This document shows positions 46 to 18,436 of a DNA stretch of 19,010 nt, one piece after another. Source of the DNA: Firmicutes bacterium OM04-13BH (GTDB taxonomy: Bacteria; Bacillota; Clostridia; Lachnospirales; Lachnospiraceae); contig QULP01000015.1 of assembly GCA_003481745.1 (NCBI GenBank), positions 1-19,010 on the forward strand. Reading direction: 5' to 3'. Within the stretch, counting starts at the first letter, position 1, and the number at the start of each line of letters is the position of its first letter. Under the pieces are notes generated by a model that made no database searches, was not told the origin of the DNA, and saw only the letters and a list, made by a program, of their open reading frames with translations. Both the position numbers and the translations under genes were made by a program.

Positions 46-55
46 TTGGAAAAAT

Positions 56-268
56 ATGGGAAGAGGAACGATTTTGCTGTATGGTCACACGCATAATGGG
101 AAAGAGGATGATTATTTCCAAAGATGTATCGTACAAATGAGCGAAAACGAGTGTGGGCATATTTATGACAAAATGCCACGGGCATATAATGTCGGCTGTA
201 TGAAACCGTGGATGAATTATGAGCCGAGGACGTTAAAAGAGATTTTGGAGAATGCAGGGCATAACTAG
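56..268 (+). pseudogene. 5'-truncated metallophosphoesterase remnant
   Basis: About 70 residues resemble the C-terminal end of small calcineurin-like metallophosphoesterases. A GHTHN metal-binding motif lies near residues 10-14, followed by a tail (YNVG...PWMNYEPRTLKEIL) that I associate with uncharacterised Clostridial members of the family. Whole proteins of this kind are roughly 170-250 residues and carry the other metal-binding motifs (DxH, GDxxD, GNH) upstream. Those are missing here: an in-frame stop at 38-40 lies just upstream and the sequence before it is a repeat-like hairpin. The ATG at 56 has no convincing ribosome binding site. The piece lacks most catalytic residues and is probably not functional. 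It could instead be the tail of a gene whose start lies left of the window and was disrupted by the repeat. Confidence 0.55.
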
Positions 269-6816: not shown

Positions 6817-6836
6817 TCTTAAAATATTTTTAGAAA

Positions 6837-6883
6837 AAAGTTCTCAACAGGCATGAAATTTCAGCTTATTGGGAGCTTTTTTT
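6837..6883 (+). terminator. Rho-independent terminator of the creatininase operon
   Basis: AAAAGTTCTCAA (6837-6848) pairs with TTGGGAGCTTTT (6869-6880), with a few G-T pairs, and runs into seven T. It ends the operon about 20 bases after the amidohydrolase stop codon. Confidence 0.8.
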
Positions 6884-6896
6884 GACTTACGTTCTT

Positions 6897-6930
6897 AGAC
6901 TTGACAAAAGTCTCTTACTCACCCTATGAT
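6897..6930 (+). promoter_or_regulatory. Promoter with an overlapping short inverted repeat
   Basis: TTGACA (6901-6906), 18 bases, then TATGAT (6925-6930). The -35 box lies inside the inverted repeat AGACTT-gacaa-AAGTCT (6897-6913), which could be an operator. It would drive the leader ORF, the acylphosphatase remnant, the acetyltransferase and the dehydrogenase. Confidence 0.6.
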
Positions 6931-6962
6931 AGTAGCAACGAAACACTTGAGGAAAAAAAATT

Positions 6963-7046
6963 ATGAACGTAACGGATATAGTACTTACAGCAAAAATGTT
7001 TTTTATTATTTTTAAGCAAGAAGCTCGGTTACTTGTAGCTGAGTAG
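6963..7046 (+). CDS. 27-residue leader ORF, unrecognised
   Basis: A short ORF with a GAGG ribosome binding site (6949-6952) encodes a mildly hydrophobic peptide starting MNVTDIVLTAK and ending RLLVAE. Its stop codon TAG is part of the dispersed repeat string GAGTAGTTCAC. It lies between a good promoter and the acylphosphatase start, so it may be a translated leader, or a decayed gene truncated by the repeat. I do not recognise it. Confidence 0.3.
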   Translation: MNVTDIVLTAKMFFIIFKQEARLLVAE

Positions 7047-7051
7047 TTCAC
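7023..7051 (+). repeat. Dispersed hairpin repeat, copy B
   Basis: CTCGGTTAC (7024-7032), loop TT, and GTAGCTGAG (7035-7043) form a 9-bp hairpin including two G-T pairs, followed by TAGTTCAC. The string GCTC-GGT-ACT-GT-GC-GAGTAGTTCAC is shared in order with copy A (15-45). It sits immediately before the acylphosphatase ribosome binding site. Confidence 0.5.
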
Positions 7052-7070
7052 AGATAGTAGGAGTGTATTT

Positions 7071-7340
7071 ATGATTCGCAGACATATTATTTTTTATGGA
7101 CATGTATAAGGCGTGGGATTTCGATATTATTGCGTACATAAAGCAAGGCAGCTTGGATTAACCGGCTGGGTAAAAAACAAATACGATGGGACGGTCGAAG
7201 CCGAAGTGCAAGGCTTAGAAGAGCAAATTGACCAACTCATTCAGTATTTGAATTCACAGACGTATATTTTGATTACAAATATGGATGTGAAAAAGCTTCC
7301 GGTGATAGGAGAGCATGATTTCATAAGGAAAGGATACTAA
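7071..7340 (+). pseudogene. acyP: Acylphosphatase gene with an in-frame nonsense codon
   Basis: Read from the ATG at 7071, which has an AGGAG site 8 bases upstream, the frame gives MIRRHIIFYGHV, then TAA (7107-7109), then GVGFRYYC and onwards to a normal end at codon 89, the usual acylphosphatase length of about 90. The stop replaces the conserved glutamine of the family signature GxVQGVGFR and would arise from one CAA-to-TAA change. Both catalytic residues lie after the stop and are intact: R18 in GVGFR and N36 in GWVKN, followed by YDGTVEAEVQG. A GTG at 7113 could restart translation, but would lose the first beta strand and the phosphate loop. The enzyme hydrolyses acyl phosphates. Most likely it is a recent pseudogene; a sequencing error is possible. 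The stop codon is 2 bases before the acetyltransferase start. Confidence 0.85.
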
Positions 7341-7342
7341 CA

Positions 7343-7810
7343 ATGAAGGTAGAAATGAAAAAGGGAGAGGTTATAATTCGTTCCATGCAGGAGAAAGACA
7401 GAGCAGAGGTCTTAAAAATGATGCAGATCTTTTATGCATCGGATGTGGTTATTCATAAAGCGGATGACGAAACATTACAGAAAGATATTTCAGATTGCGT
7501 TGGAGGCTGCCCATACGTGGATGGATATGTGTTTGAAATCGAAGGTGAGCTTGCGGGATATGGCATCGCCGCAACCGGATATTCAACCGAATTTGGCGGG
7601 GTCTGTATCTGGCTGGAAGATTTGTATATGAAGCCAGAATACAGAGGGCACGGAATCGGAAGAAAATTTTTTGAGGCAGTAGAAGAAATCTATACAGATG
7701 CAGTACGATTCCGTCTGGAAGTAGAAAAAGAAAATGCAGGTGCGGTTGCGCTATATCAGAGATTAGGATATAACTTTTGCACTTATGATGAAATGAGTAA
7801 AGAAATTTAA
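7343..7810 (+). CDS. GNAT-family N-acetyltransferase
   Basis: This 155-residue protein has a typical GNAT fold layout. The acetyl-CoA pyrophosphate loop is seen at R101-G-H-G-I-G106 after the beta-4 strand WLEDLYMKPEYR, and the C-terminal NAGAVALYQRLGY (131-143) matches the end of the family's second conserved region. It begins 2 bases after the acylphosphatase stop and uses an AAGGAAAGG site that lies within that gene, so the two are translationally linked. The start at 7343 could also be moved to the ATG five codons later (7355). The acceptor substrate cannot be told from sequence; amines, amino acids or ribosomal peptides are all possible for this family. Confidence 0.85.
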   Translation: MKVEMKKGEVIIRSMQEKDRAEVLKMMQIFYASDVVIHKADDETLQKDISDCVGGCPYVDGYVFEIEGELAGYGIAATGYSTEFGGVCIWLEDLYMKPEYRGHGIGRKFFEAVEEIYTDAVRFRLEVEKENAGAVALYQRLGYNFCTYDEMSKEI

Positions 7811-7828
7811 TTAAGGGAGAGATGGATC

Positions 7829-8764
7829 ATGAAAATTGTATTTTTGGATGCAAAGACAATAGGAGATGACATTGATTTATCAGCCTATGATGCGCTTGGA
7901 GAAGTGGTAAAATATGGATTTTCCACATCAGAAGAAGTGCCGGAGCGTGTAAAAGATGCAGATGTGTTAGTAATTAATAAGATTGAGATTAATGAGCAGA
8001 CGATTGGAACAGCAAAAAATTTAAAGTTAGTCTGCGTAACAGCTACCGGAACAAACAATCTGGATAAGGAATATCTTGAAAAACGTGGAATTGCATGGAG
8101 AAATGTAGCCGGATATTCGACAGAGTCGGTTACCCAGCATACCTTTGCGCTGTTATTTTATTTACTGGAAAAAATGCGTTATTATGATGAGTATGTCAAA
8201 ACGGAAAAATATGTAAATGATACGATTTTCACTCATTTTGCAGAGCATTTTAATGAAATCAGCGGAAAAACCTGGGGAATTATCGGACTTGGAACGATCG
8301 GAAGACGGGTTGCTGATATTGCGAAAGCATTTGGTGCACATGTGGTTTATTATTCGGCTTCCGGAAGAAGCGCACAGGAAGGATATGAACAGGTAGATTT
8401 TGATACTCTGCTTTCTAAATCCGATATTGTTTCTGTTCATGCTCCGTTAAATGAATATACAAAAGATTTGATGAATAAAGAAGCATTTGCAAAGATGAAA
8501 AAGACAGCGATTTTCTTAAATTTAGGACGTGGACCGATTGTGGTAGAACAGGATTTGTGTGAAGCTCTGGAGACCGGAGAAATTGCGGCAGCAGGTCTTG
8601 ATGTGTTATGTAAAGAACCGATGAGTGAGAAGAATCCATTGGTAAAAATAAAAGACAGCAGGAAGCTTATCATTACTCCGCATATTGCATGGGCAAGTGT
8701 GGAAGCGAGAACCAGACTGATGCAGATTATTGTGGGACAGATTAAAGAGTTTTTTGCATTATAA
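7829..8764 (+). CDS. D-2-hydroxyacid dehydrogenase
   Basis: This 311-residue protein has the D-isomer-specific 2-hydroxyacid dehydrogenase architecture: a split catalytic domain at both ends around a central Rossmann domain (about 100-280). The nucleotide-binding GLGTIG is at 153-158, and the catalytic trio is R234 in NLGRGP, E263 in CKEP and H285 in TPHIAW. After beta-2 of the Rossmann fold the sequence is VVYYSASGR, with serine instead of the acidic residue seen in strictly NAD-dependent members, which hints at NADP use. Candidate reactions are reduction of hydroxypyruvate, glyoxylate or another 2-keto acid. It follows the acetyltransferase by 18 bases with an AGGGAGAG site, so it probably shares its transcript. 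No clear terminator follows before the next promoter. Confidence 0.87.
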   Translation: MKIVFLDAKTIGDDIDLSAYDALGEVVKYGFSTSEEVPERVKDADVLVINKIEINEQTIGTAKNLKLVCVTATGTNNLDKEYLEKRGIAWRNVAGYSTESVTQHTFALLFYLLEKMRYYDEYVKTEKYVNDTIFTHFAEHFNEISGKTWGIIGLGTIGRRVADIAKAFGAHVVYYSASGRSAQEGYEQVDFDTLLSKSDIVSVHAPLNEYTKDLMNKEAFAKMKKTAIFLNLGRGPIVVEQDLCEALETGEIAAAGLDVLCKEPMSEKNPLVKIKDSRKLIITPHIAWASVEARTRLMQIIVGQIKEFFAL

Positions 8765-8800
8765 ACTTGTATGATTTTTGAAAGGATTCTTTGATTTTGC

Positions 8801-8868
8801 TTGCCATAACAGGACTCTCTCCTCTATAATGGGGAAGATGTACTCTTAAAAAAATTTCGAGAGCACAT
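8801..8868 (+). promoter_or_regulatory. Promoter and short leader hairpin of the uracil/xanthine permease gene
   Basis: TTGCCA (8801-8806), 18 bases, TATAAT (8825-8830). The leader holds a small hairpin, ATGT-a-CTCT (8838-8846) with AGAG-c-ACAT (8860-8868). It is too short for a purine riboswitch or a PyrR attenuator, and neither consensus was seen. Confidence 0.65.
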
Positions 8869-8900
8869 GAAAGATAAAAAAACGAAAGAGGAGAGAAAAA

Positions 8901-10307
8901 ATGGGAGAAAGAGGAGAAGCAATTCGTGACGCCAGAAAACTTGGCGTGCCTAAAATGCTGATTTTAGGCTTACAGCACATGTTCGCCATGTTTGGTGCAA
9001 CAATTTTAGTACCGATTCTGGTCAACAGCTATTTTGTTCAGGCGTGTGGGGAACCGCTTACAACCGGTCTGACTGTTTCCGTAACCTTATTTGGTGCAGG
9101 ATTTGGTACATTGTTGTTCCATGTGTGTTCCAAATTCAAAGTGCCTGCATTTTTGGGTTCATCCTTCGCATTTTTGGGAGGATTTTCCACAGTGGCAAAC
9201 TTAAACAGTGGAATGTATGCATCTATGGGAGCAAATGAAAAAGCAGCTTATGCCTGCGGGGGAGTTGTAGTAGCAGGTCTTTTCTATCTGATATTTGCAC
9301 TGATTATCCGTATCGTGGGAGTCAAACGTGTGATGCGTTATCTTCCGCCTGTTGTAACCGGACCGGTTATCATCTGTATCGGTTTAAGTCTTGCAGGCTC
9401 TGCAATTTCCAATGCATCCACAAACTGGTTTCTTGCACTGGTTGCCCTTGCAGTTATCATTGTGTTTAATATCTGGGGAAAAGGAATGTTTAAAATCATT
9501 CCGATTCTGATGGGGGTTGTGATTTCCTATGCAGTGGCAATGATTATGAATGCGTGTGGAATTAAGAATCCAGACGGTTCTGCAATTTTAAATTTTGCAT
9601 CTATTGCAAGTTCAAGCTGGGTGGGACTTCCGGGATTCCAGCTTTGTAAATTTGATGTAACTGCAGTTCTTGTTATGGCACCGATTGCCATTGCAACTAT
9701 GATGGAACATGTAGGAGATATGTCTGCGATTTCCGCAACGGTAGGAGAAAATTTCCTTGCAGAACCGGGACTTCACAGAACTCTGCTCGGAGATGGTCTT
9801 GCGACAGCTGTTTCCGGTCTGTTTGGAGGTCCGGCAAATACCACTTATGGAGAAAATACAGGAGTACTCGAATTAAGTAAAGTCTATGACCCGAGAGTTA
9901 TCCGTATTGCTGCCGTGTTTGCAATTATCGTCAGCTTTATTCCAAAAGTATCCGCTGTTATCAGTACCATGCCAAGCGCAATTATTGGTGGAGTCAGCTT
10001 CATGCTTTACGGAATGATTTCCGCAATTGGTGTACGTAATGTCGTAGAAAATAAAGTAGACCTGACAAAATCCAGAAATCTGATTATTGCAGGCGTTATC
10101 TTTGTCTGCGGTCTGGGATTCAGTGATGGAATTACCTTTACGATAGCAGGAACTTCGATTACCTTGACAGCACTTGCGATTGCAGCGATTGCAGGAATTG
10201 CCTTAAATATTATTCTGCCGGGAAATGACTACGAATTTGGTGTTAATGAAGCAGGAGATGAAAATAGAGGAATTCATACCAATAGTAAACGAAAAGAAGA
10301 AAAATAG
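8901..10307 (+). CDS. NCS2-family uracil (uracil/xanthine) permease
   Basis: This 468-residue membrane protein has about 14 transmembrane helices and clear NCS2/UraA signatures: LGLQHMFAMFGATILVP (22-38), KVPAFLGSSFAF (80-91), and the substrate-binding segments MMEHVGD with E269 and GGPANTTYGENTGV with E318. These correspond to the two glutamates that contact uracil and carry protons in E. coli UraA. A hydrophilic, lysine-rich C-terminal tail of about 25 residues (GDENRGIHTNSKRKEEK) is slightly longer than usual. The gene has its own promoter and AGAGGAGAG site and is followed by a structured 3' region and terminator, so it is probably a single-gene unit. The transport direction is inward with protons. 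Xanthine or another nucleobase cannot be excluded as substrate. Confidence 0.9.
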   Translation: MGERGEAIRDARKLGVPKMLILGLQHMFAMFGATILVPILVNSYFVQACGEPLTTGLTVSVTLFGAGFGTLLFHVCSKFKVPAFLGSSFAFLGGFSTVANLNSGMYASMGANEKAAYACGGVVVAGLFYLIFALIIRIVGVKRVMRYLPPVVTGPVIICIGLSLAGSAISNASTNWFLALVALAVIIVFNIWGKGMFKIIPILMGVVISYAVAMIMNACGIKNPDGSAILNFASIASSSWVGLPGFQLCKFDVTAVLVMAPIAIATMMEHVGDMSAISATVGENFLAEPGLHRTLLGDGLATAVSGLFGGPANTTYGENTGVLELSKVYDPRVIRIAAVFAIIVSFIPKVSAVISTMPSAIIGGVSFMLYGMISAIGVRNVVENKVDLTKSRNLIIAGVIFVCGLGFSDGITFTIAGTSITLTALAIAAIAGIALNIILPGNDYEFGVNEAGDENRGIHTNSKRKEEK

Positions 10308-10436: not shown

Positions 10437-10466
10437 CCCTCGGACGAAAGTTCGGGGGATTTTTTT
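10437..10466 (+). terminator. Rho-independent terminator after the permease gene
   Basis: CCCTCGGAC (10437-10445), a GAAA tetraloop, and GTTCGGGGG (10450-10458) form a 9-bp stem with two G-T pairs, followed by A and seven T. Confidence 0.88.
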
Positions 10467-10473
10467 GCATCAA

Positions 10474-10505
10474 TGCCCAATTTGGGCACTAATACCTGTT
10501 ATGCT
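10474..10505 (+). promoter_or_regulatory. Operator/extended -10 promoter module, copy 1
   Basis: The palindrome TGCCCAATTTGGGCA (10474-10488) is followed after 11 bases by TATGCT (10500-10505) in the extended -10 context TG-t-TATGCTTA. The same palindrome, 11-base gap and -10 recur at 13208-13239. No good -35 box is present: the palindrome sits where the -35 box would be. It would drive the LRR surface-protein gene. Confidence 0.6.
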
Positions 10506-10546
10506 TAGAAAAGAAAAAAGAAATTAGTATCATTAAATATTTTGTA

Positions 10547-10621
10547 ATTGTAATATTATTATAGTAATGATATAATGATTTAAAACTAAAATAAGTATAG
10601 TTATAAAAAAATAAGGAGAGG
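10547..10621 (+). promoter_or_regulatory. Duplicated promoter-to-RBS block, copy 1
   Basis: TTGTAA (10548-10553), 17 bases, TATAATGATT (-10 at 10571-10576). The block ATTGTAATATT-TT-TAGT overlapping the -35 and spacer, the ATA-TATAGTTATAAA leader and the GGAGAGG site all recur at 13887-13961 with the same -35/-10 geometry. It is the proximal promoter of the LRR surface-protein gene. Confidence 0.7.
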
Positions 10622-10630
10622 GATAAAATT

Positions 10631-13117
10631 ATGAAAAAGCAAGTAGTAGCAGCAATGTTAGCGGTTTCACTGAGCATGAGTGTGAATACACCTGCATGGG
10701 CAGCGCAAGCGGAAAATAACGCAGGACAGGCAGAAGAAAAAGAAACAAACGAAGTAAGTAGTGAAGTAAAAGATGAAGCGCAGGAAGCTGATGCGGAAGA
10801 ACAGAGCCAGGAAACTGGAGAGGCTGAAAGCGCAAATGACGAACAGACTGAAGATGAGACGGAACAAAGCAAACAGGAAGAAACATTAAAAGAAGAAAAA
10901 TCAAGCGAAGAGACATTAAGTGAAGAAAACTTAGATTCCGAAGGAAACCAAACAGAAAGTCAGGCAGAAGAAGGAGAACTGTCTGGAAGTCAAACAAATG
11001 AATTAAAAGAGGCAAATGAACCTTGTGGGGCAAATGCTAGTTGGAAATTAGAAAATGGGGTTCTTACGATTTCGGGAACTGGGGATTTGTATGATGTTAG
11101 GGTCGATATGGGGTGGACACCATGGGACGAACAGAAATATGAAATTACATCCGTTGTAATAGAAAAGGGAATTACTTCAATTGGTATGTGGATGTTTGAA
11201 GAATGTAGTAATTTAAACAATATTACAATTCCAGATAGTGTTACATCTATTGGTGCCTCTGCATTTGAAGGTTGTACAAGTTTAACAGAGATTACGATTC
11301 CGGAAGGAGTTGAGGTTTTATATGGGGGTGCATTTAGTGAATGTAGCAACTTGCAAGAAATCTCGTTACCTTCTAGTTTGAAAGAAATTGGTAGATCTGC
11401 ATTTGAAGGTTGTACAAGTTTAAAAGATGTCAATTATGCTGGAAGGAGAAATAATCTTCTTATACGGAAAGAGGGAAATGAGAAACTTAGAAATGCAACA
11501 TGGTATTGTACAAATGCGGAAATTTACACAGAAGGAAATATAACGTATGCAGTAAACGAAGACAAAACAAGTTGTGCTGTTATTGAAGTAGGAGAGGATT
11601 TGAGTGGAAAAATTCAAATACCAGAAAAGGTAAAAGAACTTACAGTAAATAAAATTGCATCAGGAGCTTTCTTGGATAATAGTAAAGTAACAGAAGTTAT
11701 TTTACCAAACACAATAACAGAAATTGGTGAAGCATCGTTTAAAAGTTGTTCAAATCTTAAGAATATTACCTTATCAAATATAATGACGAAAATCGGAGAT
11801 AGCGCTTTTGAAAATTGCGCTAACATTAAAGATATTACATTGCCACATACAATAACAGAAATCGGAGATAGCGCTTTTAAAAATTGCGCTAATCTTAAAG
11901 ATATTACATTACCAAACACAATAACAAAAATCGAAGATAGTGTTTTTGAAAATTGCACTAGCCTTAAAAATATTACATTGCCAAATTCAATAACAGAAAT
12001 TGGAGATAGTGCTTTTCATGATTGTTCCAACCTTAGAAAGGTTATATTATCTCAAAAGTTAGAACGTATAGGGAAAAGCGCTTTCTTAAGTTGCCATAGT
12101 TTGGCTGAAATTACCATAACAGAAAAAGTAAAGGTAATAGAGTATGCTGCTTTTAGTGGCTGCGCCTTTACAAAGATTATTATTCCTTCAAATGTGGAAT
12201 CAATAAAAAATTGTGCCTTTATGGGATGTGAAGAATTAACTGAAATTGTATTTTCAGAGGGAGTTAAAGAAATAGAAAATAATGCTTTTTCATATTGTAA
12301 TAAGATAAAAGAAGTTTATTTTCCAAAGACACTGACAAGTGTAGGTAGATTATTTTTTGATAATTTTGACCATGATGCATTTGATGGTAAGTCAAAGGTA
12401 GATATTTACTATGCTGGAACTGAGAAAGAGTGGAATAACGTTTCTAAGAGTAAAGAATTTGAAGATGGAATTATACCGACCTACCACTTCAACTCTAAAT
12501 ACCAAACTAACGGTCGCTGGATAAAATCCGGTTCCAGATGGTGGTATCGTTATGAAGATGGTTCTTATCCGAAAAATAAATTATGCAAAATCGGAAATAC
12601 CTGGTATGGATTTGACGCAGCAGGATGGATGAGAACCGGCTGGGTTAGTTACGATAAAAACTGGTATTATTTTGCCTCAAGTGGAGCAATGAAAACCGGT
12701 TGGTTTGCAGAAAACAAAACCTGGTATTATTTAAAATCTGATGGAAAGATGGCAAAAGGCTGGCTGAGAGTTGATGGTGCATGGTACTACTTTAACGGCA
12801 GTGGAAAAATGGCAAAAGGCTTTACTACAGTTGGAAATACAAAATATTATATGAATGGAAGCGGAAGAATGGTAACCGGCTGGCAAAAGATAAACGGTTC
12901 CTGGTATTATTTTGTATCAAGTGGAGCAATGAAAACCGGTTGGCAGAAAGTAGGCAGTTATTGGTACTATATGAAAGCTGATGGCAAAATGGCAACCGGA
13001 TGGCAGAAAATAGGCGGTAAATGGTATTATCTGGATGCATCTGGAAAAATGGCTGCAAACAGATGGGTCGGTAATTGGTATGTAAATGGCTCTGGTGTAT
13101 GGGTAAAGAGCAGATAA
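10631..13117 (+). CDS. Secreted BspA-type LRR protein with cell-wall-binding repeats
   Basis: This 828-residue surface protein starts with a signal peptide (MKKQ, hydrophobic core to about residue 19, cleavage likely near AWA-A at 24). An acidic E/Q/S-rich linker follows (about 28-125), then the BspA-type entry segment ASWKLENGVLTISGTGDL (about 135-152). LRR_5 leucine-rich repeats of 23 residues run from about 160 to 285 and from about 340 to 590, with a non-repeat insert between. Units read like ITLPNTITEIGDSAFKNCANL. The C-terminus (about 625-828) holds about nine GW...WYY cell-wall-binding (CW_binding_1, choline-binding type) repeats that would attach it non-covalently to wall polymers. 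Likely roles are host or matrix adhesion, by family resemblance only. An AAGGAGAGG site precedes the ATG. It has two promoters, each shared with another gene of this locus. Confidence 0.93.
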   Translation: MKKQVVAAMLAVSLSMSVNTPAWAAQAENNAGQAEEKETNEVSSEVKDEAQEADAEEQSQETGEAESANDEQTEDETEQSKQEETLKEEKSSEETLSEENLDSEGNQTESQAEEGELSGSQTNELKEANEPCGANASWKLENGVLTISGTGDLYDVRVDMGWTPWDEQKYEITSVVIEKGITSIGMWMFEECSNLNNITIPDSVTSIGASAFEGCTSLTEITIPEGVEVLYGGAFSECSNLQEISLPSSLKEIGRSAFEGCTSLKDVNYAGRRNNLLIRKEGNEKLRNATWYCTNAEIYTEGNITYAVNEDKTSCAVIEVGEDLSGKIQIPEKVKELTVNKIASGAFLDNSKVTEVILPNTITEIGEASFKSCSNLKNITLSNIMTKIGDSAFENCANIKDITLPHTITEIGDSAFKNCANLKDITLPNTITKIEDSVFENCTSLKNITLPNSITEIGDSAFHDCSNLRKVILSQKLERIGKSAFLSCHSLAEITITEKVKVIEYAAFSGCAFTKIIIPSNVESIKNCAFMGCEELTEIVFSEGVKEIENNAFSYCNKIKEVYFPKTLTSVGRLFFDNFDHDAFDGKSKVDIYYAGTEKEWNNVSKSKEFEDGIIPTYHFNSKYQTNGRWIKSGSRWWYRYEDGSYPKNKLCKIGNTWYGFDAAGWMRTGWVSYDKNWYYFASSGAMKTGWFAENKTWYYLKSDGKMAKGWLRVDGAWYYFNGSGKMAKGFTTVGNTKYYMNGSGRMVTGWQKINGSWYYFVSSGAMKTGWQKVGSYWYYMKADGKMATGWQKIGGKWYYLDASGKMAANRWVGNWYVNGSGVWVKSR
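11694..12050 (+). repeat. 69-bp tandem repeats encoding LRR units
   Basis: About five consecutive 69-bp units, each encoding 23 residues, contain variants of ATAACAGAAATCGGAGATAG and GCTTTTGAAAATTGC. The third and fourth units are the most alike, which points to recent unit duplication within the gene. Confidence 0.75.
12511..13117 (+). repeat. Cell-wall-binding repeat region
   Basis: About nine units of roughly 60 bp encode TGW...WYYF...SGAMK-type repeats. Two 43-base stretches, at about 12660 and 12900, are almost identical (both contain TCAAGTGGAGCAATGAAAAC), a likely site of unit gain or loss. Confidence 0.75.
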
Positions 13118-13170
13118 ATCGAACCAAATATGTGAGTACAGAAAATGTGTAAAGGATAGTTAAAGAAAAG

Positions 13171-13202
13171 TCTCTCAGATGAAAAAATCTGGGAGATTTT
13201 TT
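13171..13202 (+). terminator. Rho-independent terminator after the LRR surface-protein gene
   Basis: TCTCTCAGAT (13171-13180), loop GAAAAA, ATCTGGGAGA (13187-13196), then six T. Confidence 0.88.
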
Positions 13203-13207
13203 ATCAG

Positions 13208-13239
13208 TGCCCAATTTGGGCATTGGAACTTGTTATGCT
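13208..13239 (+). promoter_or_regulatory. Operator/extended -10 promoter module, copy 2
   Basis: The palindrome TGCCCAATTTGGGCA (13208-13222), 11 bases, then TATGCT (13234-13239) preceded by TG-t. Sequence and spacing are the same as at 10474-10505, and both copies start within a few bases of a terminator T-run. It drives the 93-residue ORF. Confidence 0.65.
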
Positions 13240-13270
13240 TATGGAAGAAAAAACAAGGAGAATATAAATT

Positions 13271-13552
13271 ATGAGTATGAAACTATCTGAAGCCACATTA
13301 AAGAAACTTTATGAAATATTACTGGAAACAGACCAGCAAATGATTCAGGAGCTCAGAGAGTGTGATACTAAGGTAATAATGGCATTTCGAAAGTATTACC
13401 AAGGAAGCCAAAATGAAATGGAAGCCTTTCGAGATGAAATTTTTGGAATCCTTTTAGAAGAGAAGAAGAAAAGTTTCTGTCAGGGAGCAAAGCTCCCTCA
13501 AATAGATTCGGAAGAATGTAAAGAACTATTTGAGGGCTTTGACGATTTTTAA
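13271..13552 (+). CDS. Small acidic hypothetical protein (93 residues)
   Basis: This is a soluble, predominantly helical and charged protein with no signal peptide or membrane segment. I recognise no family. Visible features are a long amphipathic helical region (about 5-70), clusters of charged residues (EMEAFRDEIFGILLEEKKKS) and an acidic C-terminal end (EECKELFEGFDDF). It has an AAGGAG site and its own promoter with the TGCCCAATTTGGGCA operator. Its 3' end overlaps the 3' end of the convergent repressor gene by 27 bases. It may be a partner or antagonist of that regulator, or an unrelated gene of the same regulon; the sequence does not decide this. Confidence 0.65.
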   Translation: MSMKLSEATLKKLYEILLETDQQMIQELRECDTKVIMAFRKYYQGSQNEMEAFRDEIFGILLEEKKKSFCQGAKLPQIDSEECKELFEGFDDF

Positions 13553-13846
13553 AATTTGTACTTTCGTTTCATAAGGACAGGATTGTAATTCGTGAAGAAT
13601 TTCCTGCTCAATCGGACCGGAAACATCATTATATTCATCGGAAAGAATGAAATCTAAGGTCACATCAAGCGCATTACACATCTGAACAAGAGTGGAAAGA
13701 GAGACCTTTACACGGTTGTTTTCGATGTTACTGATGTGGCTGACATTGACGTCGGCAACACTGGCAACATATTCTTGTGTCATGTTTTTAGAAATACGAA
13801 TTTCTTTTAATTTTTTTGCTATTTTTGGAAAATCAAGTTCTTTCAT
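13526..13846 (-). CDS. XRE-family transcriptional repressor
   Basis: This 106-residue protein has an N-terminal Cro/C1-type helix-turn-helix (HTH_3) at about 10-66: LKEIRISKNMTQEYVASVAD, then VNVSHISNIENNRVKVSLSTL. A short C-terminal helical region for dimerisation follows (about 75-106, ending QILKIVKALK). An AAAGGAG site precedes the ATG. Its promoter on the minus strand must overlap the plus-strand promoter at 13888-13916, the arrangement of an autoregulated repressor that also controls the divergent gene. The same promoter block stands before the LRR protein gene, so that gene may be another target. Direct binding is inferred, not seen. Confidence 0.85.
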   Translation of the reverse strand: MKELDFPKIAKKLKEIRISKNMTQEYVASVADVNVSHISNIENNRVKVSLSTLVQMCNALDVTLDFILSDEYNDVSGPIEQEILHELQSCPYETKVQILKIVKALK

Positions 13847-13871
13847 TTAGAAAACTCCTTTAAAATAAAAT

Positions 13872-13961
13872 ACTACAGTTTTACTGATTGTAATATTTTT
13901 GTAGTGCGAGTATAATGATTTGCAAGTATGATAAATATAGTTATAAATAGTGTGTGGAGAG
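13872..13961 (+). promoter_or_regulatory. Duplicated promoter-to-RBS block, copy 2, with inverted repeat
   Basis: TTGTAA (13888-13893), 17 bases, TATAATGATT (-10 at 13911-13916). The block 13887-13961 parallels 10547-10621 through the GGAGAGG site. An inverted repeat ACTACA (13872-13877) / TGTAGT (13900-13905) surrounds the -35 region and is a candidate operator for the divergent XRE repressor. Confidence 0.7.
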
Positions 13962-13973
13962 GAAAAGAAGAAT

Positions 13974-14894
13974 ATGAAAAAAGAAATTATAATTATTGTG
14001 ACAATTGTACTTGTCACAGCACTGGGAATTACGGGATTTTGTGTATACAAAGAGAAAATGAAACAGAAAGAATTGAATCAAAGTGCAAAGGTAAATGAAG
14101 CAATAAAAGAAAATGAAAAGGATTCAATAGCAGAAGAGCAGAGCGAACCGGAAGAAATGGAAGAAAAAGAAGAAGCGGTTGGAAAACAAGAAGAGGAAAC
14201 AAATCCAGAGGAAGAAACTGCAAATGAAGAAACAATACAGGAATCTGAAGCAGTAAAAAATGAGGAAAATCAAGGTATAGCAGAAGAATCAGAAACACCG
14301 CAAGTACAGTCAGAAAGTGTGACAGGAACTACCTATACAACAAAATATGCACAGACAAATGCAGTGACAGCACCAGTATTTCAGTTTGAATATCCAGAAG
14401 GATGGAATGTTCAAACTGAAAATGTAGATGCTGGAAATGTGATAGAAGAAAATGTAGTGATTTCTAATCCAAGAGGTGTTACAGTTACCTATTGGGACTG
14501 CCAGACAAATTTAGGAGTAAATGCGAAGTCAATGTTGAAAGCAGAGATTTCAAAGGCAGCAGATTCTTCATTTGTAGCGGGATATCCGGCAGGAACAGAT
14601 AAGGACTGTTCGGGACTTGGAACATTTGTGGTAGCCAAAGTACAGCTTGTGGGAGAAATGATACTAGGACTCGATTCAGATTATATGTCTATTGATAAGG
14701 CATTTTATGCGGTCGTTCCAGAATCTTATATTGGAGAAAGAGAATTTCAGGGACAGGCAGGAAATGTAGATGAATTTTCATTTGAATATCCAAATCCGCA
14801 TGCATTCATTGCAGAATCACCAGATGGTACATTTACAGCGGAAGAAGAACAGCAGGTGATTCAGATTTTGAAAAGTTTTAAAATTGCACAATAA
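13974..14894 (+). CDS. Membrane-anchored protein with acidic linker and C-terminal globular domain
   Basis: This 306-residue protein has an uncleaved signal-anchor (MKKEIIIIV to about residue 25), then a strongly acidic, E/Q-rich linker of about 80 residues (about 35-115), then a folded extracellular domain (about 125-306). That domain contains FEYPEGWNV (about 135-143), which resembles the start of PsbP-like/MOG1-type lipoprotein domains common in Firmicutes surface proteins. I do not know a specific function. The chosen ATG has GGAGAGG 12 bases upstream, matching the layout at the LRR gene. An in-frame GTG at 13950 lies before that site and was not used. The linker composition matches that of the LRR protein (10631-13117), with which it shares a promoter block. 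Confidence 0.75.
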   Translation: MKKEIIIIVTIVLVTALGITGFCVYKEKMKQKELNQSAKVNEAIKENEKDSIAEEQSEPEEMEEKEEAVGKQEEETNPEEETANEETIQESEAVKNEENQGIAEESETPQVQSESVTGTTYTTKYAQTNAVTAPVFQFEYPEGWNVQTENVDAGNVIEENVVISNPRGVTVTYWDCQTNLGVNAKSMLKAEISKAADSSFVAGYPAGTDKDCSGLGTFVVAKVQLVGEMILGLDSDYMSIDKAFYAVVPESYIGEREFQGQAGNVDEFSFEYPNPHAFIAESPDGTFTAEEEQQVIQILKSFKIAQ

Positions 14895-14905
14895 AAAGAA
14901 AAATA

Positions 14906-14934
14906 TTGCATTTTATCTATATAAAATGTATAAT
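14906..14934 (+). promoter_or_regulatory. Promoter upstream of the WYL remnant and payload gene 1
   Basis: TTGCAT (14906-14911), 17 bases, TATAAT (14929-14934). It lies only 9 bases before the WYL remnant, so the transcript would carry the remnant as an untranslated or short translated leader before the payload gene. Confidence 0.65.
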
Positions 14935-14942
14935 AGAATGGA

Positions 14943-15062
14943 ATGATTTATTGGTCGTTGTATCATTATGATGTGACAGAGTGGATAGAAAATAAAGAGG
15001 AAAAGTTGGGGAAAGAATTGAGGGATGCGGTGGAGAGATTGGATGAGAAGTATTGCCAGTAG
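14943..15062 (+). pseudogene. C-terminal remnant of a second WYL-domain protein gene
   Basis: These 39 codons ending in TAG (MIYWSLYHYDVTEWIENK... ...YCQ) align without gaps to the last 39 residues of the WYL protein at 16424-17464 (MVYWLLHHYDVAELIENK... ...YCE). Nucleotide similarity continues for about 60 bases past both stop codons, to near 15110 and 17515. No ribosome binding site precedes the ATG at 14943. The rest of the gene is missing and is replaced by the 3' end of the acidic membrane-protein locus plus a promoter. It marks a deletion or recombination joint. Confidence 0.85.
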
Positions 15063-15149
15063 ATTATTTGTAACATTTGTAGATTGAAACAGTTAGATTA
15101 ATGAATTTTAGAGTTCGAACAAATAAATATGGAAGGAACTAATATAGCA

Positions 15150-16061
15150 ATGGGAAAATCAGAAGATGATTCAGAAAAAAGTTTAGAAGAACGTTTATTA
15201 GATTTAAAAAAGGTTGATATAGATCTTGATTTGAAATATCCTTTTGACACAAAGAAAAATGTATATGATCCAGATTCTAGCCTGCGAGCATGGGAATATT
15301 ATTTTGAGATGTATTATGAATTTTTGAGTAATGTTGAGGAAGAAGATAAAAATCTTTTATTTGAAAAAAGATTTGGAAAAAAGAATAAGTTTTGGCTTAG
15401 TGGTAAGGCTTATAAACGAGTAGTGGGAACATTTTGTTATTTTGAAAATAAAGATTATATATGGCCGTACAAGTTGGATAGCTGTTGGCTTAAAGAAGGC
15501 AAAAATATAGGTATAGCGGGAGACTGTACATTTAATTTTAATGAAAAAAAAGTTTCACATTTTTGGAATGTGATAGAAAAAGATGATAATAAGGAAAATC
15601 AGCAGATTAAAGAAATTTTATTATTATGTTCATCAATGCATCATTCACCATTTAATTTTTCGTTAATGCCGACAACTGGGGGATTAAATAATATTAAAGG
15701 AAGAAATGCGTTAGATCGTATAGATGTTTTTTTAAATACGCTAAAAAATATTTATGAAAAGATTAAAAAAAATGAGGAAATCGAAGAAATTAACGTAACA
15801 AAAACAACAGGAAGAGCGTTAATACATTTTTTGAAGTGTATTGGTAGCTTCGAAAATTATTGTAAGATATTTTATCAACTTGATTATGAAGAAGGGAACA
15901 AGGAGAATTTAGTACAAAAATTACTTGACAATGCAGAAGAATATAAGAGTATTGAAAATTCAGATCAGCTTGTAAAATATATGGAATTAGCAGTCGAGTA
16001 TTGGGAGAAGCAGAAAGAAAAATATGAAAAGGTATCAGGCACCAATAAAAATCAGTCATAA
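15150..16061 (+). CDS. Unrecognised 303-residue protein behind the WYL remnant (payload 1)
   Basis: I do not recognise this family. It is a soluble, charged, aromatic-rich protein without signal peptide or membrane segment. Notable stretches, counting from the chosen start, are DSSLRAWEYYFEMYYEFL (about 43-60), KRVVGTFCYFE (about 89-99), the turn-rich GIAGDCTFNFNEKKVSHFW (about 122-140), and SPFNFSLMPTTGGLNNIKG (about 167-185) followed by LDRIDVFLNTL, which looks like the most conserved core. The C-terminal 50 residues are helical and highly charged. The ATG at 15150 has GGAAGGA about 12 bases upstream; the ATG at 15129 has no site. The gene is very AT-rich with A/T-ending codons compared with the metabolic genes, which suggests transfer. 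Because it follows a WYL remnant exactly where the intact copy is followed by a nuclease gene, a defence role is possible. Confidence 0.7.
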   Translation: MGKSEDDSEKSLEERLLDLKKVDIDLDLKYPFDTKKNVYDPDSSLRAWEYYFEMYYEFLSNVEEEDKNLLFEKRFGKKNKFWLSGKAYKRVVGTFCYFENKDYIWPYKLDSCWLKEGKNIGIAGDCTFNFNEKKVSHFWNVIEKDDNKENQQIKEILLLCSSMHHSPFNFSLMPTTGGLNNIKGRNALDRIDVFLNTLKNIYEKIKKNEEIEEINVTKTTGRALIHFLKCIGSFENYCKIFYQLDYEEGNKENLVQKLLDNAEEYKSIENSDQLVKYMELAVEYWEKQKEKYEKVSGTNKNQS

Positions 16062-16118
16062 ATTCTGAAACGTGTCATCCATCAACTAAATCCAAATCAT
16101 TAAATATCTGGGTATCCA

Positions 16119-16154
16119 ATATGCTGCTCATAGTGAGCAGCATATATTTTATTT
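16119..16154 (+). terminator. Terminator after payload gene 1
   Basis: ATATGCTGCTCA (16119-16130), loop TAG, TGAGCAGCATAT (16134-16145) form a perfect 12-bp stem, followed by ATTTTATTT. Confidence 0.85.
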
Positions 16155-16162
16155 ATAAAAAA

Positions 16163-16180
16163 GCGTCACACAAATGACGC
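16163..16180. promoter_or_regulatory. Palindrome upstream of the WYL locus (operator or minus-strand terminator)
   Basis: GCGTCA-CACAAA-TGACGC is an 18-bp perfect palindrome with a 6-base centre, about 60 bases upstream of the small ORF that precedes the WYL gene. An A-run on its left side would give a T-run on the minus strand, so it could be a minus-strand terminator. Its position also suits an operator for the WYL regulator. Confidence 0.45.
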
Positions 16181-16241
16181 CCCTAAATGGTAGACTAACA
16201 TTACCAAAGAAATTAAAAAACAAAAAGGGAAAGGAACGGAT

Positions 16242-16394
16242 ATGAATTCGAAGGATGTGATTGTGGAGACACCAGCGATACAGGAAATGATTCGGAATAA
16301 GTTGCTAACAAACGGAATCGAAAAGGCTCAATTTACATCAGAAACTCCAGCTGTAGAAGCAATTCTGTTCAAGGATTATTTAAAATCATTTTGA
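16242..16394 (+). CDS. 50-residue hypothetical protein upstream of the WYL gene
   Basis: The ORF starts at an ATG with GGGAAAGGAAC upstream and encodes MNSKDVIVETPAIQEM and onwards to ILFKDYLKSF. It is soluble and half charged, with one probable helix (12-28). It ends 29 bases before the WYL gene start and just before that gene's ribosome binding site, so the two are likely co-transcribed. I recognise no family. It may be a small partner of the WYL regulator or a decayed gene. Confidence 0.5.
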   Translation: MNSKDVIVETPAIQEMIRNKLLTNGIEKAQFTSETPAVEAILFKDYLKSF

Positions 16395-16423
16395 ATTTGT
16401 ATTATGGGACAAGGAGAAAAATC

Positions 16424-17464
16424 ATGAATCTTAGAAAATATTTGATTGAACTGTTGAAGAACAATACAGGGGAAGATAAAAACTCTAAAGAAATAAAAAC
16501 AATGCAACAGAATGAGATTTATGAAAAATTACATGCGGATTATCCGGATATCACATTAAAAAAAGTCAGAACGTGCCTGAAAAATCTTGTTGAAGAAGAA
16601 GCAAACTTACCAGATGAAGAAAAAACAATTTGTTACGAAGAACGCTATGGAAGAAAAACAAATTATTATTATAACAAAAGCAGTACCGATATTTCAGATG
16701 TTGAATTAAAGTATTTAATCGATTCGATTATGTATGGAAAAATATTCAACTCTAAACAGGCAAAAAGCTTTGCAAAACGAGTACAAAAGCTAAGTGGGAA
16801 AAATTTAAAAGACATTACACCCTATGTCAATGACAGCTTTGGAAGACAAAGATTTACCTTGGAAACAGATGTGCTTCAAAATATTGATGTTATCTTAAAA
16901 GCGATAAAAAGCGGTCAGTGTATTTCCTTTAATTGGAATGTTTATGATATCGTAAATGGAAAAGTAGAGACAAGAGAAATCTATCAGGCAACAGTAAAAC
17001 CAATTCGACTGATTTTAAATGAAGGTCGATATTGTGCGCATGTTCGTTATGAAAAAGGGAGAAAAATTTACACTTATAATGTGGATTTGATGAAAGAGAT
17101 TAGGGTAGTTCCGGGATTTCAGGATGGAATCAGAGAAGAAGAAATACAAAGAAATTTTGAACGGGCAGAGTATCTCTTACAGACTCCATATAACTTTGGT
17201 GGAGAAATAAAAACTTATAAGTTAAGGGTACAAAAAGAGTATTTCTCTCGGTTGGTAAATACATTTTCGTATGGAATAAAAATAATAGATGGAACGGAAA
17301 CTGAAAAAACAGTAGATGTCAGGATAAAAGCAACGAAAAGAGGAATGGTCTATTGGCTGCTGCATCATTATGATGTGGCAGAGTTGATAGAAAATAAGGA
17401 TGAAGAGTTGGGAGAAGAGCTGAGGAGGGCGGTGGAGAGTTTGTATAAGAGGTATTGCGAATAA
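16424..17464 (+). CDS. WYL-domain transcriptional regulator
   Basis: This 346-residue protein has an N-terminal winged-helix region (about 1-75; MNLRKYLIELLKNN, LKKVRTCLKNLVEEE), a linker, and a WYL domain at about 165-230. There the strands TREIYQATVKPIRLILNEGRYCAHVRY and KIYTYNVDLMKEIRVV match the family's P-x-x-L...W-Y-L pattern, with G-R-Y-C in place of W-Y-L. A C-terminal extension (about 255-346) ends in YWLLHHYDVAELIENK. WYL regulators (CapW, BrxR, PafBC types) sense nucleic acids or nucleotides and often precede defence operons. The ATG at 16424 has AAGGAG just upstream; the in-frame TTG 11 codons earlier lacks a site. It is followed by a nuclease gene after 147 bases. A remnant of a paralogue lies at 14943-15062. 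Confidence 0.85.
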   Translation: MNLRKYLIELLKNNTGEDKNSKEIKTMQQNEIYEKLHADYPDITLKKVRTCLKNLVEEEANLPDEEKTICYEERYGRKTNYYYNKSSTDISDVELKYLIDSIMYGKIFNSKQAKSFAKRVQKLSGKNLKDITPYVNDSFGRQRFTLETDVLQNIDVILKAIKSGQCISFNWNVYDIVNGKVETREIYQATVKPIRLILNEGRYCAHVRYEKGRKIYTYNVDLMKEIRVVPGFQDGIREEEIQRNFERAEYLLQTPYNFGGEIKTYKLRVQKEYFSRLVNTFSYGIKIIDGTETEKTVDVRIKATKRGMVYWLLHHYDVAELIENKDEELGEELRRAVESLYKRYCE

Positions 17465-17549
17465 GTTACTTGAAGCATTGTGTAAATTGGAGCAGTTTAA
17501 ATTAATGAGATTTAGGACTAAAAAAAGAAAAGGTACTAACCAAGTTCAT

Positions 17550-17587
17550 GTTGACAGGATAGATATCATATAATGCGAGTTGACAGT
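17550..17587 (+). promoter_or_regulatory. Possible promoter/operator before the nuclease gene
   Basis: TATAAT at 17569-17574 overlaps the first in-frame ATG (17573), so a transcript from it would start past that codon, favouring the ATG at 17612. The 8-mer GTTGACAG occurs on both sides of the -10 box (17550-17557 and 17579-17586) as a direct repeat, a possible regulator site. The TTGACA is only 12 bases from the -10 box, so a canonical promoter is not present. Confidence 0.35.
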
Positions 17588-17611
17588 ATTGATGAAAGGG
17601 AGAATCTTGTA

Positions 17612-18436
17612 ATGGAATTAAAAATCATGGAATGGAATATTAATCAGCGTATGAATTATTCAGGTAAAAATATGCCAGATTGGATCGCTGATGTAATAGC
17701 TAATGAGGCTGCGGATATAATTGCGTTGACAGAGGTATATAAAGGTAATAATTGGGAGAAGGTTAAGACGGCAGCATTTAATTCAAATTATGTTGTTTTT
17801 GAAACATCTAATAGTTCAGCAGGACAGAATGATGTTGCTATTGCAATTAATATTAATAAGTTAAATGTGATATATGCAAAAACATATTATCCGAGTATTC
17901 AAGGAATTCCAGACTATCTTGAAGTTAAATGTAAAAGCAAGAAAACGGATAAAGAATTTATATTTATTTGTATAAGAATACATGCTTCAGTAGGGGGCAG
18001 TATAAGGCGTCAAGAATTAAAACATACTATGTCAGTTGTAGAGAATGAAGACACAGTTATTGTTTGTGGGGATTTTAATAACTATAGAAGAGGTTATGTC
18101 GATGGCACTTGGTGCTTAAATGAAATTTCCAAAATTTGTGAGAAGTATAATTTTGTTGTTAAAACACCAGAGGGTTCAAGTATTTATGAAGAAAATCCTA
18201 GTGATACAAATTATGAATTTCCAGAGGATCATTTTTTGCTAAAAGGTATTGAAGAAAAAGATTTTAGTTTATCTCCATATGATCGTAATTTTATGGAAAA
18301 TGACAAAACAATATATAGATGGAATCGAGACTTTCAAGTGTATTTAGGAAATGATAAAAGTAGAAAAAGTATATATGATTCTGTTCCAACTCCATTTCCA
18401 GATCATGCAATTTTGAAAGGTAAAGTTGTAATTTGA
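17612..18436 (+). CDS. Endonuclease/exonuclease/phosphatase (EEP) superfamily protein (payload 2)
   Basis: This 274-residue stand-alone EEP-fold enzyme (the DNase I / exonuclease III / inositol phosphatase superfamily) keeps the full set of motifs: N9 in MEWNIN, E41 in IIALTEV (metal ligand), H124 in IRIHASV, D154 and N156 in VCGDFNN, D206-H207 in PEDHFLL, and the terminal catalytic D264-H265 in PFPDHAIL. There is no signal peptide, so it acts inside the cell. The substrate could be DNA, RNA or a phosphoester. The ATG at 17612 has GGGAG about 9 bases upstream; the earlier ATG at 17573 overlaps a -10 box. It follows a WYL regulator gene, as defence effectors often do, and is AT-rich like payload 1. 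A housekeeping role is not excluded. Confidence 0.82.
   Translation: MELKIMEWNINQRMNYSGKNMPDWIADVIANEAADIIALTEVYKGNNWEKVKTAAFNSNYVVFETSNSSAGQNDVAIAININKLNVIYAKTYYPSIQGIPDYLEVKCKSKKTDKEFIFICIRIHASVGGSIRRQELKHTMSVVENEDTVIVCGDFNNYRRGYVDGTWCLNEISKICEKYNFVVKTPEGSSIYEENPSDTNYEFPEDHFLLKGIEEKDFSLSPYDRNFMENDKTIYRWNRDFQVYLGNDKSRKSIYDSVPTPFPDHAILKGKVVI

Follow-up and report, generated by a model that had tools for sequence, protein, structure and literature searches.

The question raised by this locus is how the 3' end of a WYL-type regulator gene came to stand twice, before two different genes, in one stretch of 19,010 nucleotides of Firmicutes bacterium OM04-13BH (hereafter the window). The original prediction placed the two copies at 14943-15110 and 17345-17515, and these coordinates proved correct to a few bases: BLASTN of 14900-15140 against 17300-17580 gave a single alignment of 14940-15111 with 17342-17515 (137 of 174 positions identical, 79%, two gaps, E 4e-38). 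Its local score, 159, far exceeds the highest value among 500 shuffles of the first segment, which was 33. The repeat was also recovered as family D4 by the repeat finder, and the duplication of the WYL 3' end is confirmed as real. The features of the locus, including the genes behind the first copy (payload 1) and the second (payload 2), are collected in Table 1.

Table 1. Positions of the features discussed in the text
Feature	Position	Strand	Remarks
Calcineurin-like metallophosphoesterase tail	47..268	+	aligns with residues 133-201 of the 203-residue L056 protein, 55%
Gene directly upstream of the WYL stub	13950..14894	+	46% over its last 172 residues to a homologue in the G028 island
WYL tail (stub) of a truncated regulator paralogue, last 40 codons and stop	14940..15062	+	matches residues 307-346 of the intact WYL
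Post-stop leader common to the stub and the intact WYL copy	15063..15111	+	homology stops 17 nt short of ATG 15129
Payload 1, unrecognised protein, 310 aa	15129..16061	+	no Pfam family above cut-off
Intrinsic-terminator-like hairpin, 12 pairs and T-rich tail	16119..16145	+	1 site found vs 1.6 expected in shuffles
HAD_SAK-type gene tail	16281..16394	+	inside 50-codon ORF 16242-16394
Intact WYL-type transcription regulator, 346 aa	16424..17464	+	ORF opens at TTG 16391
Repeat copy 2, WYL 3' end and post-stop leader	17342..17515	+	repeat finder, BLASTN
Payload 2, EEP-superfamily nuclease/phosphatase, 274 aa	17612..18436	+	carries the family motif residues; ORF open from 17573

The WYL stub before payload 1

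The stub reads on in the WYL frame through 40 codons, GMIYWSLYHYDVTEWIENKEEKLGKELRDAVERLDEKYCQ, to a stop at 15060-15062, and its counterpart in the modelled WYL protein is the last helix-strand-helix. The possibility that it aligns no better than unrelated WYL C-termini was checked with the WYL of the window and 24 of the 32 WYL homologues, and the outcome was otherwise: 29 of its 40 residues agree with the near-identical metagenome WYLs P0058 and P0059 and 26 with the WYL of the window, while none of the other 22 homologues compared exceeds 23 of 40. This comparison supports the assignment of the stub, as a close paralogue, to the lineage of the intact WYL. The rest of a WYL gene was undetected upstream, where tblastn of WYL residues 1-306 against 12500-15200 returned matches of 8-15 residues with E of at least 3.7. 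The dN/dS ratio between stub and WYL, with the frame open, is 0.38, a value that might reflect some constraint on the stub, although 40 codons are too few to judge. The G028 island that carries the homologue of the gene directly upstream of the stub also contains a payload-1 homologue and a HAD tail.

The stub is probably what is left of a paralogous second WYL gene, formerly located in front of payload 1 in a variable island. The 3' ends and a leader of about 50 bases are common to both copies, which then diverge; the sequences thus show that one ancestral WYL-leader segment came to precede two different genes. The second WYL would have preceded payload 1 in the way that the intact WYL now precedes the nuclease. 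This upstream WYL, the first in order along the window, would have lost about 88% of its length from the 5' side, its tail being left beside its payload. A point against this deletion step is that no relative with an intact first WYL, or lacking the stub, was found. The setting is an island of variable content, with WYL, metallophosphoesterase, HAD_SAK, EEP, DUF6994-like and unrecognised genes; in several such loci tails of broken genes lie just upstream of the next gene. Such tails may persist because longer deletions would harm the start region of the next gene or its coupled translation, an idea suggested by genome G333, where the start codon of the payload lies inside a WYL tail.

The intact regulator and the two payloads

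The intact WYL scores 18.1 bits with the Pfam WYL model, under the cut-off of 21.8, and matches the PADLOC WYL profile with E 3.2e-13; a precomputed PF13280 assignment is carried by 5 of the 32 WYL homologues listed. Foldseek supports the winged-HTH, WYL and WCX arrangement, with matches along the length of the protein to DriD (E 3.8e-11 over 363 columns), CapW (5.5e-6), BrxR (2.7e-5) and PafBC, whereas sequence identity to BrxR, CapW, DriD and PafBC is 8-18% and the global TM-scores are low (0.2-0.3), which fits the uncertain placement of domains in the WYL model (pLDDT 76.9, pTM 0.53). Judged from its family, by analogy with DriD, CapW and BrxR, the probable role of the regulator is to sense a nucleic-acid or nucleotide signal and to control the nuclease. 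One published account (PMC9122601) reports an association of BrxR homologues with phage-defence systems in 48% of cases. Unlike such neighbourhoods, the two payloads of the window contain no convincing known defence component beside the WYL according to the PADLOC 2023 models, with which three proteins were scanned (no match for the nuclease; payload 1 reached at best 14.6 bits, E 0.006), a scan that leaves room for a newer or undescribed defence system.

The nuclease scores 29.9 bits with PF03372 (Exo_endo_phos), above the cut-off of 24.5, while exodeoxyribonuclease III models match it weakly, far under their cut-offs, and no relatives among solved structures were found by sequence profile. 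Its start was placed at the codon at which most aligned relatives begin. The EWN, E, GDFNN and PDHA residues, which we take to be the catalytic motifs, are invariant in 38 aligned sequences, that of the window included.

Payload 1 may be read from ATG 15129 or, as a protein of 303 residues, from ATG 15150; by eye, the ribosome-binding site of the latter start is the better one. It has 57 related proteins and an AlphaFold2 model with a mean pLDDT of 87.6, for which the searches made among solved structures gave no close match. The family recurs in islands of the WYL/metallophosphoesterase/HAD_SAK/EEP kind and in one prophage-like contig. Likeness to DUF6994 (PF22507) is limited to a weak match in one of 39 family members (E 7.5e-5) and to a profile comparison of the family with 22% probability over 70 columns, payload 1 itself being unmatched. 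The hairpin downstream may end the payload-1 unit. The GC contents of payload 1, the nuclease and the WYL (0.283, 0.302 and 0.33, compared with 0.359 for the window and 0.38-0.43 for three core genes) are in keeping with a foreign origin.

Other gene tails and the variable island

Tails of two further gene kinds are present in the window. Over 37 residues the HAD tail is 57% identical to the L130 HAD protein, and over 30 residues 60-67% to the HAD tails of L060 and L057; the metallophosphoesterase tail has an in-frame stop just 5' of it and is preceded by 46 bases of the window. A WYL tail is also found in the distant genome G333 (locus L058), where a 109-residue ORF that clusters with WYLs (76 residues aligned with the 401-aa WYL of L056, 32%, E 1.4e-9) lies directly before a frameshifted payload-1 homologue, the start of which it overlaps by 11 nt. 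A WYL tail stands upstream in just two of the four payload-1 loci with context (the window, L058, L057/L141 and L019), which weighs against the remnant reading. Other tails are those of a metallophosphoesterase in L056 (10951-11064) and of a HAD protein in a 127-aa chimera of G028. The gap from the tail stop to the next ORF, computed for seven of the eight named tails, is at most 70 nt in five of the seven by script, and in six if an internal ATG chosen by eye is accepted for the G028 neighbour.

Islands that combine genes of the WYL, metallophosphoesterase, HAD_SAK and EEP kinds also occur in other genomes, and the HAD_SAK_2 (PF18143), metallophosphoesterase and EEP nuclease genes stand together in the islands of L059 and L060. 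The window resembles these islands in its tails of the HAD and metallophosphoesterase kinds; no intact gene of either kind was seen in its island, which may run past the window. The start of an IS-like ORF was seen by eye at the right end of the window. A link between HAD_SAK and RNA repair was reportedly made in a 2016 NAR paper. The Pfam description of this 'Swiss Army Knife' domain states the same link.

An excess of tails over heads in such islands was considered and dropped, the raw counts being 12 tails and 15 heads in a BLAST screen and 5 tails and 11 heads in a profile scan, of which two candidates lay at contig ends and which missed the L058 tail and the HAD tail of the window. Tails outnumber heads only after the removal by hand of artefacts of truncated queries or divergent full-length proteins: tails found with the G028 chimera as query (L129, L130, L144), heads found with the short L059 HAD as query (L060, L129, L130, L144), heads from divergent metallophosphoesterases and one EEP protein matching just at their start, and unclear cases (L133, L135/L126, L139, L142 and others). 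Further tail candidates are L136:7294-7512, L134:1823-1906, L141:8591-9109 and those of L133. Partial HAD_SAK_2 places in 250 genomes comprised four on the C side, one of them adjoined by its own N part and one at a contig end, and, besides that N part, one on the N side; these counts are too few for any claim of tail bias.

Possible leader function, exchange and turnover

A rather unlikely alternative to a remnant is that the 174-base segment was kept as a working leader, through coupled translation, a small ORF or regulator-binding DNA, which would place payload 1 under the nuclease's WYL. Such a role would agree with the retained frame and stop, with similarity that reaches about 50 bases past the stop toward both payload starts, and with the overlap in G333. 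Moreover, an N-terminal extension (MNLEFEQINMEG) in P0016 and P0026 matches LEFEQINMEG, encoded before ATG 15129, and, on this protein-level match, other payload-1 genes probably have these bases conserved in front of them. The two segments are, however, just 79% alike, promoter-like sites between 13400 and 19010 number 25 against 25.5 expected, the Rfam search gave no match, and no binding site was identified.

Less likely still is a kept or exchanged unit offset by one gene, in which each downstream gene would keep, or carry along with it, the 3' tail and leader of its upstream neighbour. Island turnover would then leave the C-terminal ends of regulators and enzymes as scars, and leaders copied from one WYL would come to stand before payloads of different sources. 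This reading was rated lower because the raw counts held no tail excess before filtering by hand.

The original prediction had proposed a cassette system, in which the WYL 3' end is the homology arm for recombination of new payloads into the place behind the regulator, with stubs left over. The variation of payloads that it implied was found: the next same-strand gene (an ORF of at least 90 aa) behind this WYL subfamily is of five kinds in seven loci, namely the EEP nuclease in the window, a 327-aa unrecognised protein in L001, a 354-aa unrecognised protein in L002 and L003 (in L003 with an 87-aa ORF between), a second WYL in L004 and L005, and a metallophosphoesterase in L056. The WYLs of L005 are in tandem and followed by a DUF6994-type protein (28.5 bits); in L004 the second WYL is split into two ORFs and followed by a homologue of that protein. 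At the 44-52% protein identity of the WYL relatives, this variation could be old.

Islands of this sort do have single genes replaced: two near-identical copies of a related island, in L060 (genome G121) and in the gut record MT835651.1, are set apart by one gene body of about 0.9 kb between flanks of 98.3% and 96.9% identity. The breakpoints of this swap, however, lie inside the swapped gene's own start and just 5' of the next gene, and the two versions, with shared ends and 27% identity overall, look from their sequences like diverged forms of one protein, not different families. The WYL end as exchange homology is not supported, as the longest run of exact identity between the copies is 14 bases. 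Two segments of 79% identity with so short an exact run are a poor substrate for homologous recombination. The samples searched contained no close relative and no two strains in which the payloads behind this WYL had been swapped. The cassette system is the least probable of these explanations.

The remnant of a second WYL gene remains the favoured reading of the stub. If such tails mark old gene borders, the islands would record which regulator once preceded which effector, a record that would help in guessing the function of uncharacterised effectors such as payload 1. The locus offers a concrete pair of WYL regulator and nuclease, together with an uncharacterised payload-1 family that has numerous relatives and a confident structural model.

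Two WYL 3′ ends before different genes

In the window's sequence two WYL 3′ ends, each with its leader, precede different genes: a stub stands before payload 1, an unrecognised protein, and the end of the intact WYL gene before payload 2, an EEP nuclease. The original prediction that the WYL 3′ end and the bases following its stop are present twice was confirmed by BLASTN, as 14940-15111 and 17342-17515 (family D4 of the repeat finder) share 137 of 174 positions (79%, two gaps, E 4e-38), with a local score of 159 against a maximum of 33 among 500 shuffles of the first segment. No exact run of more than 14 bases is common to the two copies. The stub opens with the WYL codon for G307, reads in the WYL frame for 40 codons up to a retained stop and corresponds to residues 307-346, the final helix-strand-helix in the predicted WYL model; the similarity runs about 50 bases beyond this stop and ends 17 nt 5′ of the earliest start that payload 1 could use. 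The remainder of the WYL gene was not detected upstream, where residues 1-306 gave only 8-15-residue matches in 12500-15200 (E 3.7 or worse).

Compared with 24 of 32 WYL homologues and the window's own WYL, the stub shares 29 of its 40 residues with two near-identical metagenome proteins (P0058 and P0059), 26 with the window's WYL and 23 with P0060; none of the remaining 21 has more than 22 in common with it. It thus aligns better with its closest relatives than with other WYL C-termini. By residue comparison, it is the end of a close WYL paralogue rather than a generic WYL end. The dN/dS of stub versus WYL is 0.38 (16.3 non-synonymous and 7.7 synonymous differences), a figure that does not decide whether the stub is constrained.

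The intact WYL protein matches the PADLOC profile at E 3.2e-13, and its Pfam WYL score (18.1 bits) lies under the 21.8-bit cut-off. Its predicted model (pLDDT 76.9, pTM 0.53) resembles DriD (Foldseek 3.8e-11), PafBC, CapW and BrxR, with low global TM-scores of only 0.2-0.3. BrxR is described as a repressor, 48% of whose homologues are located with defence systems (PMC9122601). By analogy with its family, the WYL protein may control the nuclease, and perhaps payload 1 too. In the nuclease (281 relatives found, 120 of them listed), the conserved residues of the EEP family are unchanged across 38 aligned sequences. A direct repeat, GTTGACAGgATagAT / GTTGACAGtATtGAT at 17550-17595, was spotted by eye immediately 5′ of its start and is a candidate regulator site.

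Payload 1 has 57 related proteins and no convincing family in Pfam, NCBIfam or PADLOC; its predicted model is confident (mean pLDDT 87.6) and has no match in the structure libraries searched. In the family alignment, the identity of relatives P0002-P0026 to the window protein reaches 90-100% in some blocks and is about 36-60% in others, which suggests mosaic alleles. In a prophage-like contig of IMG/VR, a distant homologue (28%, L019:5401-6255) has tail genes on either side.

Stranded gene remnants

C-terminal remnants (tails) recur across these islands, several of them close to the next gene, and in a second genome (G333) a WYL tail likewise precedes a payload-1 homologue. Distances to the next same-strand ORF were computed for seven of the eight named tails, leaving out that of L134. 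The chimeric ORF of G028 is possibly a gene fusion at the same junction. Tails were no commoner than N-terminal remnants (heads) in raw screens (12 versus 15; 5 versus 11), and an excess was seen only after entries were hand-filtered; the claim is therefore restricted to tails existing and recurring, not outnumbering heads.

Genes, remnants and genes next to WYL relatives (next gene, next same-strand ORF of at least 90 aa)
Feature	Location	Description	Gap after tail
WYL tail (stub)	window 14940-15062	last 40 codons and stop	66 nt
HAD_SAK tail	window 16281-16394	directly 5′ of WYL gene	4-nt overlap with TTG start; 29 nt to ATG 16424
Metallophosphoesterase tail	window 47-268	in-frame stop just 5′; directly before Rpn-type gene at 328	59 nt
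WYL tail	G333 (L058)	C-terminal part, end of 109-codon ORF	11-nt overlap with start of frameshifted payload-1 homologue
Metallophosphoesterase tail	L056		14 nt
HAD_SAK tail	G028, L141:7664-8047	last 50 residues of chimeric 127-aa ORF; first half unrelated to HAD	803 nt; ~40 nt if overlapping DUF6994-like gene uses internal ATG judged by eye
Rpn-type nuclease tail	L002		502 nt
HAD tail	L134	32 residues	
Tail candidates	L136:7294-7512, L134:1823-1906	from remnant screen	
HAD head	L059	judged real	
Lipoprotein-type head	L003	judged real	
Head	L126	possibly real	
Payload 1	window 15129-16061	no convincing family	
Intact WYL gene	window 16424-17464	346 aa; PADLOC WYL profile; next gene EEP nuclease	
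Payload 2, EEP nuclease	window 17612-18436	PF03372, 29.9 bits	
WYL relative	L001	next gene unknown, 327 aa	
WYL relatives	L002, L003	next gene unknown, 354 aa; 87-aa ORF intervenes in L003	
WYL relatives	L004, L005	next gene second WYL, then DUF6994-type protein	
WYL relative	L056	next gene metallophosphoesterase	

Variable islands and gene replacement

When GTDB species genomes were first scanned, the single protein as query retrieved no WYL relatives; a second scan with alignment A1 yielded five loci (44-52% identity), and one further relative (50%) was found in G011 among 195 sampled relatives of the nearest genome. Identities above 31% occurred in the seed genomes alone within the genera of G002, a Lachnospiraceae bacterium that carries L002 (81 genomes), and G011 (22 genomes), and the nearest genus (5 genomes) gave only two matches of 22-24%. 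The subfamily is therefore sparse and patchy in the genomes sampled. Five kinds of next gene follow it in seven loci, which include two pairs of related organisms (L002/L003 and L004/L005); the WYL genes are tandem in L005, and the second is split into two ORFs in L004.

In overlapping samples of G002's family, payload 1 was present in 2 of 397 genomes (single-sequence query) and 1 of 250 (alignment query), the nuclease in 4 of 397, all at 35% identity or less, and HAD_SAK_2 in 22 of 250 (21 above cut-off); the top DNA match of the window's uracil permease gene was 77% among the 397, so that the window most likely stems from a Lachnospiraceae-like organism of a genus absent from this sample. 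Loci with a homologue of one window gene often hold homologues of others together with metallophosphoesterases: G333 has the latter and a payload-1 homologue, L059 and L060 combine them with HAD_SAK and EEP nucleases, and in G028 a payload-1 homologue and the HAD tail occur with a metallophosphoesterase, a DUF6994-like gene and a homologue of the gene immediately left of the stub. Against a general rule, 10 of 17 loci with a HAD-profile ORF gave no match to the other four profiles or to the DUF6994-like and lipoprotein-type families. Within the window, 10463-10607, 5′ of an LRR/choline-binding-repeat gene (10631), is partly duplicated at 13197-13256 and 13880-13947 (80% over 60 nt, 76% over 68 nt), 5′ of the gene at 13950, with a small ORF and a Cro/C1-type HTH gene parting the blocks of the second copy; both regions share the palindrome TGCCCAATTTGGGCA, a possible operator.

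Replacement of single genes happens in such islands, since L060, in genome G121, and MT835651.1 (L146; a gut record with the label unverified bacteriophage sequence, human faeces) differ by one gene between near-identical flanks (98.3% over 4.5 kb and 96.9% over 3.6 kb). The intervening 0.9 kb or so encodes two versions of a 335-341-aa protein, alike at their ends only and 27% identical overall. Adjoining the replaced gene in L060 is a 1158-aa protein (5787-9263) matching PF05183, cellular-type RNA-dependent RNA polymerase (37.3 bits, E 1.8e-9), with homologues in L130, L141 and L059.

Origin of the stub

Probably a WYL-leader segment was either copied or gained on two occasions, each time with another payload; the first WYL gene would then have lost its 5′ side and kept its tail because this adjoins the start region of the next gene. 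At 16119-16145 a hairpin resembling a terminator (one found, 1.6 expected) may set the unit of stub and payload 1 apart from that of WYL and nuclease. Exchange of payloads through the WYL 3′ end, as originally proposed, is a reasonable idea, and the variation it implies behind the regulator was indeed found; recombination through that 3′ end, however, found no support, and the breakpoints of the L060 swap lie elsewhere, at the start of the swapped gene itself and just 5′ of the next gene's start. A decayed WYL paralogue in a variable island is the ordinary and more likely account, and the observation of the repeat was right and worth having.
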